In this document: in pieces, positions 4,741-10,114 of the stretch
Numbering within the stretch: position 1 is the first letter of the stretch
Layout: every line of letters begins with the position of its first letter
NCBI GenBank assembly: GCA_029001845.1
Contig: JAREWP010000097.1
Coordinates: 1 to 46,456 of the forward strand
Direction of reading: 5' to 3'
Length of the DNA: 46,456 nt
DNA from: Candidatus Magnetocorallium paracelense
GTDB taxonomy: Bacteria; Nitrospirota; Thermodesulfovibrionia; Thermodesulfovibrionales; Magnetobacteriaceae
Position numbers and translations under genes: made by a program
Notes under the pieces: generated by a model
What the model saw: the letters and a program-made list of their open reading frames with translations, nothing else
What the model was told of the DNA's origin: nothing
The model's database searches: none

Positions 4741-6429
4741 TTACCTGATATCATATTTCCTGAGTTTATTATAAAAAGTGGTTCGTGTCATACCGAGCAG
4801 ACGGGCGGCTTCTGATTTGTTCCAGTGCGTTTTTTCCAGGGATTCCATTATTGCCGTGAATTCATCATCTTTGCTCATCGAGATATTGCCCCCCCTTTCT
4901 TTCCTGAATTCAGCAGGGAGATCGTTAACGGTTATCGTAGATTGACGGCAGGTTATGAAAGCGTGCTCCAATGTATGCTCCAGCTCTCTCACATTACCGC
5001 TCCATCGATAAATCATAAATATATCGTACACCTCATCAGACACGCCGATAATGTCCTTATTGAATTTCTGGTTGAATTTCGTTACAAAATGCTCGGTTAG
5101 CAGCGGGATATCGTCTTTTCTCTCTCTCAGAGGCGGTATGTCGATTTCCACAACTTTAAGCCTGTAATAAAGATCCTCTCTGAAACTTCCTTCCTCTATT
5201 TTTTTCTTTAAATCCTGATTAGTAGCTGCAACAATACGAACATCCACCTTTATCGGTTTAGAGTCTCCTACTCTTTCAATCTCCTTTTCCTGAAGAACAC
5301 GCAGAAGTTTCACCTGTATGGCTTGAGATATATCTCCGATTTCATCGAGTAGAATCGTCCCGCCGTCGGCAAGGTGGAATCTGCCCTGTTTATCGCTCAA
5401 AGCACCGGTAAAAGCCCCTTTTACATGCCCGAAAATCTCGCTTTCAAGCAGACTTTCAGAAAAGGCCGAACAGTTCACTTTAACATAAGGCCCCTTCCCG
5501 CGGTTTCCCTTACAGTGCAACGCCTCTGCGATAAGTTCCTTTCCCGTCCCGCTTTCTCCTTTTATCAGAACAGTAGAATCCACATTCGCGAGATTCTGTA
5601 TAAGGGAATACATCTCCTGCATTTTTTCGTTTTTCCCTATTATATTAAAAAAACAATATCGTTCGTTCACAGCCTGTTCGAGATAGGAGAGTTTCGTTTC
5701 GTCGCTTATGAGCATGACAGCGCCTTTAAGCTTTCCACCTCGATCGCTCAGAGGAGATATCTTCATTGATAGAACCTGTTTTACATTGTCTTTGCATTGG
5801 CACTCTATTCGAGCTTTTTTTACCGTTACATGTTCATCTATTGTCCTTTTTAACATATCGAAACAACCGCTGCTACATCCCTTAATTATAGATGCAAGAG
5901 ATTTCCCTACACTATTTTTTTCTATTGGCAGACAAAGTTTCTCAGCAGCAGCGTTGATCTCGATGACTTTATAATCTTTATCCACCGTTACGATTCCGTC
6001 TTCCACACTGTTGAATATGGCTTCAAGATTCTTTCTGTACCTGTTTCTTTCGTCAATAACATACTTGTGCCTGAGGGCCATTTTCGTAACACGTATCAGC
6101 ATCTCCTTTTTAACGGGTTTCACTATATAATCATAAGCGCCCAGTCGGACCGCCTCTGTCGCCGTTTCAAGGCCCGGGTAACCTGTAAAAAGAACGACAG
6201 GACAACTTAATTCTCTTTCCTTAATCCCATATAAAATGTCTATACCCGACTTGCCGCCCAAAACGATATCGCTTAAGAGTAAGTCGATCTCTTCGGAGTC
6301 GATTATTTTTATAGCACTGTCAAAATCGCAGGCCGTAAATATGACATACCCCAAATCGGAAAGCATGATCTCCAGGGTATTCAAAATAATCTCTTCGTCG
6401 TCAATAACCAGAATCTTTTCTTTTTTCAT
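4741..6429 (-). CDS. Sigma-54-dependent response regulator with PAS domain
   Basis: An NtrC-family activator of 562 residues. The receiver domain (1-120) has Asp54. A PAS-type segment (about 131-250) follows. The AAA+ domain has Walker A GESGTGKE at 291, the sigma-54 contact loop GAFTGA at 338-343, Walker B ILLDEIGD near 359, and the usual RLKVVEIDIPPLRER region. A Fis-type helix-turn-helix closes the protein (about 525-560, NKSEAARLLGMTRTTFYNKL). It should remodel RNA polymerase-sigma54 at enhancer-dependent promoters once phosphorylated. The gene is the only complete DNA-binding regulator in the signalling island. It sits 27 bases downstream of, and in the same direction as, nothing obvious except the hybrid kinase at 6457, which is its likeliest partner. 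No -24/-12 promoter was recognised nearby. Confidence 0.95.
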   Translation of the reverse strand: MKKEKILVIDDEEIILNTLEIMLSDLGYVIFTACDFDSAIKIIDSEEIDLLLSDIVLGGKSGIDILYGIKERELSCPVVLFTGYPGLETATEAVRLGAYDYIVKPVKKEMLIRVTKMALRHKYVIDERNRYRKNLEAIFNSVEDGIVTVDKDYKVIEINAAAEKLCLPIEKNSVGKSLASIIKGCSSGCFDMLKRTIDEHVTVKKARIECQCKDNVKQVLSMKISPLSDRGGKLKGAVMLISDETKLSYLEQAVNERYCFFNIIGKNEKMQEMYSLIQNLANVDSTVLIKGESGTGKELIAEALHCKGNRGKGPYVKVNCSAFSESLLESEIFGHVKGAFTGALSDKQGRFHLADGGTILLDEIGDISQAIQVKLLRVLQEKEIERVGDSKPIKVDVRIVAATNQDLKKKIEEGSFREDLYYRLKVVEIDIPPLRERKDDIPLLTEHFVTKFNQKFNKDIIGVSDEVYDIFMIYRWSGNVRELEHTLEHAFITCRQSTITVNDLPAEFRKERGGNISMSKDDEFTAIMESLEKTHWNKSEAARLLGMTRTTFYNKLRKYDIR

Positions 6430-6456: not shown

Positions 6457-9400
6457 TTAAGATAAAAATCCCTCCAGGGTTTTATGTACTCTTTCAAACT
6501 CACACTCCAGAGTCGGAATCAGCTCACGCGATGTCTCCAAGTCACCTCCTCCGGCGGCTTTCTCTATTTTACGAGCGACCTCTTGTACAAAACCGGCCTT
6601 TATATTGGACGAGGCCCCTTTGATGGAGTGGGCCTGTCTCCGAACCACAACGGCGTCTTCCTCTTCCAATGCCTCTTTTAGTTTTCTTAGCTGTTTGGGC
6701 ATATCATCATAGTAAACTCCGGCGATTCTTTTGAGAAGCTTTTCATCTCCACCCAGCGCTTCAAGGGCGACCTTCCAATCCACTACATGCTCTTCCGTTG
6801 AAGTATCTGTCACTCTTGGTTCAGGTTCGGAGAGCTCTGCGTCCAACCTTTTTCCTGAAGGGGCAAACTTCCTGATAATATCGGATATCTCATTTGGCTT
6901 AAAAGGTTTTGAGATATAATCGTTCATTCCCGCATCTATACACCTCTCCTTATCGCTCTGCATGGCGTGCGCCGTCATGGCAACGATGGGTATGTCAGTG
7001 TCAAAGGGGGCGTCCTTTGTCGCTCTGATCACTTTTGTCGCTTCTATTCCGTCCATCTCAGGCATTTCAATATCCATAAATATCATATCCGGTTTTTCAA
7101 TTCTAAGTTTCTCTATAACCTCTTTGCCGTTCTCCGCTATTACAACCTTATGGCCCAGGTTCTCCAATACTCCTGTCGCCACTGCCTGGTTTACGGGGTT
7201 GTCCTCTGCAAGCAGTATTTGAACCGAATAATCAGGAGATTTCAAGGTTTCATACATATCAAGCGCTCCGTCTACAAGTTGCTCCAATTTCTTTCCTGTT
7301 ATGAGGCTTAGCACTTTGGCCTGCTTGTAAGGCTTCATCAAATAACCTGACAGTCCGATATCATCCAAAACTCGCCCGGATTTTATAAGCTCCTCTCCTT
7401 CCTTGAAACCTGCCAGCAGAATCAGCTTTGCTTCCCCTGTTTTTGTATTGCTTTTTGCTTTTGAAGCAAACTCATAGCCATCCATATCAGGCAAGTGAGA
7501 ACTTACCAGAACTATCTGAAAGGGAGTGTTTTTTTTGGTCGCCTCAATCATTGCACGAAGTCCCTCTCTTCCGCTCAACGCCTCGCGGTGCGTAAAACGC
7601 CATTCTTCCAATATATCCTTTAAAACCAAACGGCTCGTCATGTCGCTTTCCACTATCAAAATATTCGTATCATCACTCTTTATTCCCTCCATTAAAAGGG
7701 GGTGCTCTGTGCCCTCGTCTGCCACGCCCGGCCTGACAGTAAAATGAAATGTGCTTCCCAGCCCCTCATCACTTTCCACCCACATCTCTCCCTTCATCAT
7801 GCTCACAAGCTGTCTGGATATGGTTAATCCCAAGCCCGTTCCTCCGAATTTTCGGGCTATCGTTCCGTCCGCCTGGGAAAAACTCTCGAATATCCTGTCC
7901 AACCTCTCTTCCGGTATCCCTGTACCTGTATCTGTCACTGAAAAATGCAGGAAATGAGACTCTTTTCCGATATCGATTCTTTCTTTACCTCCCTCTTCAA
8001 CACCATGCTCTGCCAATATGACAATCTCTCCCTTTTCCGTGAACTTCATCGCATTACCTACAAGATTTGTCAATATCTGTCTCAGTCGAACCTGATCACC
8101 TTTCACCATTATTGGGATGGATGGTCTGATATGAGTGTAAAGATTTATTCCTTTTTTCCCGGCGCTAACCACAAAGGTTTCGCATACGCCTTCAACTGTA
8201 TAGATTAAGTCAAAGTCTACATCCTCCAGGTCCATCTTACCGGCTTCGATCTTCGAAAAATCCAGTATATCGTTGATGATGGTCAGGAGGTTGTTGGCGG
8301 AGAGTTTTGTCATCTCTATATACTCCCGCTGCTGCTCTGTCAGCTCTGTTTGCAGAACAAGATCGGTCGTGCCGATAATGCCGTTCATGGGTGTGCGGAT
8401 TTCATGACTCATCTTCGCCAAAAAATCACTTTTCGCCCTTGTCGCCTCTTCGGCTCTCTCTCTGGCCTCATGAAGTTGACGTTCCAGCTCTTTACGTTCT
8501 GTAATATCTCTTATGATGCCACTAAAAAAACGCATGCCTCCTGTTTCCCAATGAGAGAGGGAAATCTCCAGTTCCATCTCTGTTCCGTTTTTTCTCAGCC
8601 CGATGACTTCTACTGTCTTACCCTCCGTTAATTCCGATAATTCGGCATTTTTTAAATTTTCGAATACTTTAACATGGGACTCTCTGAATCTTTCCGGCAT
8701 GAGAGTTGTTACCTGCCTGTTCAATAGCTCCTCATTGCCATAACCGAATATCTCTTCTGCTTCTCTGTTGTGGTAAATGATTTTACCCTCACTATTTGTC
8801 AGGACAATACCATCCTTTGCAGACTCCGCTACCGAACGAAACTGACTTTCCGATTTCTCTAAACGCTCTTCAACCTCTTTCCGCATGGTAATGTCTTCTT
8901 TTAACGCAATAAAGTGAGTAATGGCGCCCTTTTTGTCCTTTACCGGCGCAATGGTTGCGTATTCCCAAAACAATTCGCCGTTCTTTTTCTTATTGTGAAA
9001 CTCACCCTGCCACTCCTTCCCGGATGTTATAGTTACCCAGAGATCTTTATAGAACTCCCTTCCCTGTACGCCTGACTTAAGGATACGCGGATTTTTTCCA
9101 ATGGCTTCTTCCAATGAATATCCCGTTGATTTTGTGAATTTGGTATTGACATACTCTATCTTTCCTTTCCTGTCTGTAATTACGACACTGGCCGGGCTCT
9201 GTTCAACCGCCTGGGACAGCTTTCTGACTGATTCTGTTTGCATAAGATAGGAGGCCCTCTTTTCAAGAGCTGTTATCAGCTCGTTCGCTTTTATGGGTTT
9301 ATGCAGGTATTCGTCTATATTTAGTGAAATCAATTGGATGAGCTGTGAGGTCTCATTAAATGCGGTTGTAACGATAACCGGTGTGTCAGAATTGATTTTT

Positions 9401-9627
9401 TTGATCTCAGTGATCAGTTGTACACCGTCCATCTCCGGCATTGATATATCAGTTACAACAATATCCGGCATAAATTGTTTATACAACTCAAGTCCTTTCT
9501 TTCCATTTTCCGCCTCATAGACCTCTTTACATCTCCTCTTTAATGATCTTGACACTTTATGTCGCGTCAAATCATCGTCTTCCGTATACAAAACTTTCAT
9601 TTGACTTAAAATTATGTGATTTTCCAT
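6457..9627 (-). CDS. Cytoplasmic hybrid histidine kinase (REC-PAS-PAS-HisKA-HATPase-REC-REC-HPt)
   Basis: The start is set at the ATG at 9627 (MENHIILSQ), which has GGGAG about nine bases upstream. A longer frame to 9744 would add 39 unrelated residues and overlap the next gene. The 1056-residue protein has no membrane helix. It begins with a receiver (Asp60) and has two PAS domains (about 137-255 and 260-380), each ending in a 'DIT.RK' edge. HisKA has His408, the HATPase G1 box is TDTGTGI near 566, and GGTGLGLTIS is near 596. The second receiver is degenerate: VLVSSHLPDMDG has Ser709 where Asp is expected. The third receiver is complete (Asp852). The HPt domain has His1000 in QAHSIKGASSN. 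The downstream sigma-54 regulator starts 27 bases after its stop, so the two are probably co-transcribed. Confidence 0.93.
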   Translation of the reverse strand: MENHIILSQMKVLYTEDDDLTRHKVSRSLKRRCKEVYEAENGKKGLELYKQFMPDIVVTDISMPEMDGVQLITEIKKINSDTPVIVTTAFNETSQLIQLISLNIDEYLHKPIKANELITALEKRASYLMQTESVRKLSQAVEQSPASVVITDRKGKIEYVNTKFTKSTGYSLEEAIGKNPRILKSGVQGREFYKDLWVTITSGKEWQGEFHNKKKNGELFWEYATIAPVKDKKGAITHFIALKEDITMRKEVEERLEKSESQFRSVAESAKDGIVLTNSEGKIIYHNREAEEIFGYGNEELLNRQVTTLMPERFRESHVKVFENLKNAELSELTEGKTVEVIGLRKNGTEMELEISLSHWETGGMRFFSGIIRDITERKELERQLHEARERAEEATRAKSDFLAKMSHEIRTPMNGIIGTTDLVLQTELTEQQREYIEMTKLSANNLLTIINDILDFSKIEAGKMDLEDVDFDLIYTVEGVCETFVVSAGKKGINLYTHIRPSIPIMVKGDQVRLRQILTNLVGNAMKFTEKGEIVILAEHGVEEGGKERIDIGKESHFLHFSVTDTGTGIPEERLDRIFESFSQADGTIARKFGGTGLGLTISRQLVSMMKGEMWVESDEGLGSTFHFTVRPGVADEGTEHPLLMEGIKSDDTNILIVESDMTSRLVLKDILEEWRFTHREALSGREGLRAMIEATKKNTPFQIVLVSSHLPDMDGYEFASKAKSNTKTGEAKLILLAGFKEGEELIKSGRVLDDIGLSGYLMKPYKQAKVLSLITGKKLEQLVDGALDMYETLKSPDYSVQILLAEDNPVNQAVATGVLENLGHKVVIAENGKEVIEKLRIEKPDMIFMDIEMPEMDGIEATKVIRATKDAPFDTDIPIVAMTAHAMQSDKERCIDAGMNDYISKPFKPNEISDIIRKFAPSGKRLDAELSEPEPRVTDTSTEEHVVDWKVALEALGGDEKLLKRIAGVYYDDMPKQLRKLKEALEEEDAVVVRRQAHSIKGASSNIKAGFVQEVARKIEKAAGGGDLETSRELIPTLECEFERVHKTLEGFLS

Positions 9628-9683
9628 ATATAAATACTCCCGTTCTATGCTTCGCCCCAGGAAGGCAAATCTCTTTAAACAGA

Positions 9684-9714
9684 CCTCCGATCCCTGAACT
9701 CTGCAAACAGTTAC
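9684..9714 (-). repeat. Possible copy of the GATCCCTGA repeat
   Basis: CTCCGATCCCTGAACTCTG followed by CAAACAGTTACG resembles the repeats at 23541 and 32360. It lies in the spacer between the HPt-like gene and the kinase. The similarity is partial. Confidence 0.4.
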
Positions 9715-9724
9715 GCTCAGCGTC

Positions 9725-10114
9725 TTAAAGAGCAGAAAGAACAAACAGATTGGTTACTATTTCGTGCAATCTTTTAAACTCTGCTTCAACTCTGTTAAAT
9801 AGTGTAGTTGCTTCCTGAAGATTTCCCTTTAATATGGCTTGTTCGACTTTTAATGAGGTTTTAGCGATAAGGTTTGCATTAATGTTAACAGAAGCGCCCC
9901 TGATGTTATCGGCGCGCATCCTGATTTGACGAATATCGCCTTCCTCAATGGCTTGCCGTAAAGTGTCCAGTTTTTTCGGCATATCCATACAATAGGCAGT
10001 TAACATTTTTCTTACAAGTTTTTTATCGCCATCTAAACGCTTTATTAATTTTGGTAAATCTATAATTAAACTTATATTACAACTATAATCGTTTGTTTCT
10101 TTGTTATTCATCAT
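9725..10114 (-). CDS. Stand-alone HPt-like protein lacking the phospho-histidine
   Basis: A 129-residue helical protein, clearly paralogous to the HPt domain at the C-terminus of the neighbouring kinase (shared runs: L.GD.KL..., DMPK.L..L..A.EE.D, then IRGAS.NI.A against IKGASSNIKA). At the active site the kinase reads QAHSIKGAS, whereas this protein reads RADNIRGAS, with Asp69 in place of the phospho-accepting His. The lysine of the motif is Arg. It therefore cannot carry a phosphoryl group in the usual way, and might act as a binding decoy or inhibitor of receiver domains. It lies 97 bases upstream of the kinase start on the same strand. The ribosome site is weak. Confidence 0.85.
   Translation of the reverse strand: MMNNKETNDYSCNISLIIDLPKLIKRLDGDKKLVRKMLTAYCMDMPKKLDTLRQAIEEGDIRQIRMRADNIRGASVNINANLIAKTSLKVEQAILKGNLQEATTLFNRVEAEFKRLHEIVTNLFVLSAL

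Follow-up and report, generated by a model that had tools for sequence, protein, structure and literature searches.

A free-standing HPt protein with aspartate in place of the phospho-accepting histidine, probably maintained as a phosphate-inert regulator in Candidatus Magnetocorallium paracelense

The stretch of DNA analysed here, called the window, comprises 46,456 nucleotides from Candidatus Magnetocorallium paracelense (contig JAREWP010000097.1, positions 1 to 46,456 of the forward strand) and contains a gene for a free-standing HPt protein that has an aspartate where the phospho-accepting histidine should be. The gene (9725..10114, minus strand) is an intact open reading frame with an ATG start and encodes 129 amino acids, with Asp69 at the phospho-His position. 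This protein, the Asp-HPt, is probably a maintained, phosphate-inert regulator and not a broken gene. A second free-standing protein with the same substitution, likewise next to a related kinase, is found on another contig (C39) of the same genome.

The position of Asp69 follows from the alignment of the active-site stretch RADNIRGASVNINA with QAHSIKGASSNIKA, the corresponding stretch in the HPt domain of the adjacent hybrid kinase, K52. The Pfam Hpt model (PF01627) matches 54 places in the 6.0-Mb genome, and the active column of these aligned matches is His in 51, Asp in two and Ser in one. The replacement of the phospho-His that was claimed in the original prediction, made from the sequence alone, is thus confirmed and is no matter of chance. 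The two Asp cases are the protein of the window and the 119 amino acid protein on C39. The Ser case, a sub-threshold match with the sequence QQASLLKES within a frame of about 1015 amino acids (C9:59142-59330, minus strand), is a possible further His-less HPt.

The fold appears to be retained, as had also been predicted. The Asp-HPt of the window scores 35.1 bits with the Pfam Hpt model, above the curated cut-off of 24.6, while the C39 copy is just below it with 23.7 bits. The AlphaFold2 model, built with the use of HPts of the window, predicts a four-helix bundle with helices at residues 31-58, 61-77, 81-95 and 99-128 and a pLDDT of 92-96 in the core. The best Foldseek matches to this model were all HPts, with template modelling scores (query) of 0.71-0.80; the best among solved structures were Pseudomonas aeruginosa HptB (7c1i), a Shewanella HPt domain, maize ZmHP2 and ArcB (2a0b). 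A profile search agreed, giving 7c1i at 2.6e-9, and a search of NCBIfam gave no meaningful family.

A functional HPt has the phospho-accepting His in the motif H-x-x-K-G. This His is Asp in both copies (D69 in the window), and the Asp-HPt thus has the properties of a pseudo-HPt, that is, a free-standing HPt fold in which the acceptor His is replaced. With Asp in place of the acceptor, the usual phosphate relay is impossible. The only His in the window protein, H117, is in the last helix, away from the active-site position, and the C39 copy is devoid of His; there is therefore no conserved alternative acceptor, which would have spoken against the original prediction. The surroundings of the active site are kept, in agreement with the original prediction. 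The helix segment R65-N77 (RMRADNIRGASVN; 9884..9922, minus strand) shares 11 of 13 residues with the C39 copy, in which the motif stretch is MRADNIAGASVN, and the motif MRADNIxGASVN is common to both. The Gly at H+4 is present in both copies; in Ypd1 this position influences the geometry of phosphotransfer at the receiver interface (PMC6341664).

The conservation between the two copies is difficult to reconcile with neutral divergence. They are 45% identical as proteins, comparable to the 49% found between the HPt domains of K52 and K39, the hybrid kinase next to the C39 copy. At fourfold-degenerate sites 8 of 21 positions are identical in the Asp-HPt pair (0.23 expected), close to saturation, and the same holds for K52 and K39, identical at 0.31 of such sites (0.25 expected); the selection analysis rests on two copies and few fourfold sites. 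Neutral simulations with d = 0.6-1.3 gave a mean protein identity of only 14-32%, and at d = 0.6 or more the open frame survived in less than 1% of the runs. Identity is concentrated at residues 65-77, with 11 of 13 compared with 43 of 106 in the rest of the protein (Fisher p 0.003, for a region picked from the motif), and a stretch of the preceding helix, residues 38-49 (LTAYCxDMPKKL), is equally conserved (11/12). Eight of the 11 codons for the common residues in 65-77 differ synonymously, among them the codon for the Asp itself (GAT/GAC). Nearly saturated synonymous sites together with a conserved motif indicate purifying selection, and on these sequences it is well supported that the Asp-HPt is maintained by selection and phosphate-inert. 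A decayed singleton, which would have contradicted the original prediction, is rejected on account of the codon differences and of the other copy with Asp.

The phylogenetic analyses indicate that the Asp form is not a recent copy of a neighbouring domain. In the maximum likelihood trees the two Asp-HPts form one clade with support of 99/97, or 95/90 when the motif columns are removed. Approximately unbiased (AU) tests reject the joining of the window Asp-HPt to the HPt of K52 (p-AU 0.009; 0.010 without motif columns) and of the C39 copy to the HPt of K39 (p-AU 0.0007; 0.001 without motif columns). The simplest view is therefore that the Asp form had a single origin, which preceded the separation of the two copies, and that it was not recently copied from its present neighbour. 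The paralogy with the HPt domain of K52 that was originally proposed stands in so far as the two are homologous, with 34% identity. The closest relative is instead the C39 copy, and the implied origin as a direct, recent duplicate of the HPt of the adjacent kinase is rejected, with motif columns in or out.

The kinases have a related history. Over their full length K39 and K52 are paralogous, with 58% identity in 918 aligned residues. Their common layout comprises a receiver, PAS, HisKA and HATPase domains, a further pair of receivers and an HPt that has its His. The C39 Asp-HPt is located downstream of K39 and that of the window upstream of K52. The simplest history would be duplication of a pair of kinase and Asp-HPt, despite the changed gene order.

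The Asp-HPt is known from a single genome, which contains both copies. The search covered 230 genomes of the class by profile and a sample of 396 genomes of the phylum; a DNA pattern was used for the order, and a pattern search extended to about 85,000 species. No further protein with Asp in this motif turned up in any of these sets. The pattern gave 32 matches that are unrelated proteins (several of them MurC-like) or short frames, none of which matches the HPt profile, and two additional matches in the phylum are short frames with no relation to HPt. A plasmid search gave no match. The most similar case comes from a genome of the same class (G397, family f15), in which a free-standing HPt lies directly after a kinase of related layout; here the His is kept (AHTISGAS), with Ser at H+3. 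A lone receiver follows in this locus (L077 6679-10308), and the three consecutive genes may form a complete phosphorelay.

The role best supported for the Asp-HPt is that of an inert docking partner, because the His is gone, the HPt docking surface including the H+4 Gly is kept, and receivers 1 and 3 of both K52 and K39 appear catalytically intact. The protein would be a bacterial pseudo-HPt, a four-helix bundle unable to carry a phosphoryl group, kept under selection within a duplicated pair of hybrid kinase and Asp-HPt. Through its conserved pseudo-active-site helix it would most likely dock on the phospho-acceptor receiver or receivers of the partner kinase or of the response regulator downstream of K52. 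Once docked it would rival the true HPt domain, and this competition would damp or gate the phosphorelay, in the manner of plant AHP6. For this reading as a whole, from selection through docking and competition to damping, we see about an even chance.

Several observations weigh against it. The H+3 Lys is lost in both copies, being Arg in the window protein and Ala in the C39 protein; this Lys contacts the receiver in Ypd1, and docking may therefore be altered. The order of the Asp-HPt and kinase genes differs between the loci, as described above, and the distribution is restricted to one genome. There is no clear Shine-Dalgarno sequence before the window gene, as is also the case for several neighbouring genes, and the gene is AT-shifted, with a GC content at third codon positions (GC3) of 0.31 compared with 0.47 for K52.

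The loss of the Lys, which may weaken classical docking, would suit a phospho-inert adaptor that binds the kinase itself, for example at the dimerization domain (DHp), the HPt or a pseudo-receiver. Such an adaptor would tune or localise the kinase but would not compete for docking on receivers. Both Asp-HPts of the genome adjoin paralogous kinases, and the middle receiver of each kinase (residues 654-778 of K52 in ATG numbering) has Ser at the phospho-Asp position. A receiver without the phospho-Asp is a pseudo-receiver, and this is a feature common to the class of tandem-receiver kinases; several related members of the family also have Ser, and the middle receiver of another kinase, K22, apparently has Gly. 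However, related kinases have the same substitution in genomes without an Asp-HPt, so that there is no specific link, and a specific coupling of the Asp-HPt to the middle pseudo-receiver is rejected. The most HPt-like part, the docking helix, is moreover retained in 11 of 13 residues, and we consider the adaptor rather unlikely.

Less probable still is a decaying duplicate, in which case the gene would be what is left of an HPt gene that has lost its function. The missing His, the AT shift and lack of a clear ribosome-binding site in the window copy, and the confinement to one genome are what such a remnant could display. It should, however, not have the same Asp in two intact reading frames with synonymously different codons, and neither the 45% identity at nearly saturated fourfold sites nor the survival of the frames is in line with the neutral simulations.

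A phosphatase type of co-regulator, with Asp69 and Asn70 promoting dephosphorylation of the phospho-Asp at the receiver active site, is improbable. Acid/amide pairs do promote dephosphorylation in CheZ, CheX and the HisKA phosphatase motifs, Asp69 is placed where the His would face the phospho-Asp of the receiver, and the two copies do not differ at Asn70. The adjacent D-N pair, however, differs in its spacing from the known motifs (DxxxQ, ExxN/T), and residue identity is the sole support. An active phosphotransfer protein using H117, the one His of the window copy, or Asp69 itself is very improbable, since H117 is in the last helix instead of the active site, no His occurs anywhere in the C39 copy, and HPt bundles have no Mg-binding acidic pocket for phosphorylation of an Asp.

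The window Asp-HPt is separated by 97 bp from K52 (6457..9627, minus strand), which has 1056 amino acids from a likely ATG at 9627 and the domain order REC-PAS-PAS-HisKA-HATPase-REC-REC-HPt. The promoter-like sites upstream of the Asp-HPt gene are no more than consensus matches. Its HPt domain (6487..6723, minus strand), identified by Pfam and alignment, has the canonical His (QAHSIKGASSN). A response regulator of the receiver and sigma54-activator type, with domains read from the sequence, lies 27 bp downstream of K52 on the same strand (4741..6429, minus strand) and is probably in the same transcription unit, judging from sequence and position. The gap between the Asp-HPt and K52 contains an unstranded copy (9662..9714) of a dispersed repeat of about 53 bp, which is present at 40 or more places in the genome with 83-94% identity; it could be a small mobile element of non-autonomous type or a REP-like element. 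An RNA element in this repeat finds no support, as no Rfam family matches it. The stretch that separates K39 from the C39 Asp-HPt (L076 9048-9404) contains short TCAGC-rich repeats, and both Asp-HPt loci therefore have repeats in the gap between kinase and HPt.

Bacterial HPt domains without His are already known and make up 0.9% (90 of 10,312) of the Hpt domains in one survey (PMC12632262). They occur in ChpA of P. aeruginosa and in CheA3; those of ChpA were not phosphorylated in vitro, and the role of His-less domains in general was given as undetermined (PMC10782961). The Asp-HPt is like these in being a bacterial HPt fold without the acceptor His. It differs in having a gene of its own, which seems to have been duplicated along with a hybrid kinase, whereas they are domains within CheA proteins with several Hpt domains. 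HptB of P. aeruginosa, the closest solved structure by both profile and fold, is also free-standing but has the phospho-accepting His and is active in phosphotransfer. The free-standing HPt of G397 is of similar length and is likewise next to a related hybrid kinase, but in the tree it groups with the kinase HPts, although one clade with the Asp copies is not rejected (p-AU 0.115).

A close parallel is AHP6 of Arabidopsis, which inhibits the cytokinin phosphorelay (PMC3572949, PMC4709007). AHP6 and the other plant pseudo-HPts, presumed to be derived from active HPts, likewise have a free-standing HPt fold with the acceptor His replaced, by Asn in AHP6. The Asp-HPt is instead bacterial, has Asp and is encoded beside a kinase, and inhibition has been established genetically for AHP6 whereas we infer it for signalling by the Asp-HPt. 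With somewhat less than even confidence, the Asp-HPt may be a dedicated inhibitor that forms a genetic module with its hybrid kinase, the two having been duplicated together, and thus a bacterial counterpart of AHP6 in which an Asp decoy sets the gain of the phosphorelay. In the open-licence literature, the part that was searched, no description of a bacterial free-standing pseudo-HPt was found. The described His-less cases are in large CheA proteins, whereas the Asp-HPts are a small free-standing pair, each adjoining its kinase. The same Asp has been kept in them through deep divergence, which makes them an unusually clean system in which to ask if bacteria, like plants with AHP6, employ HPt decoys.
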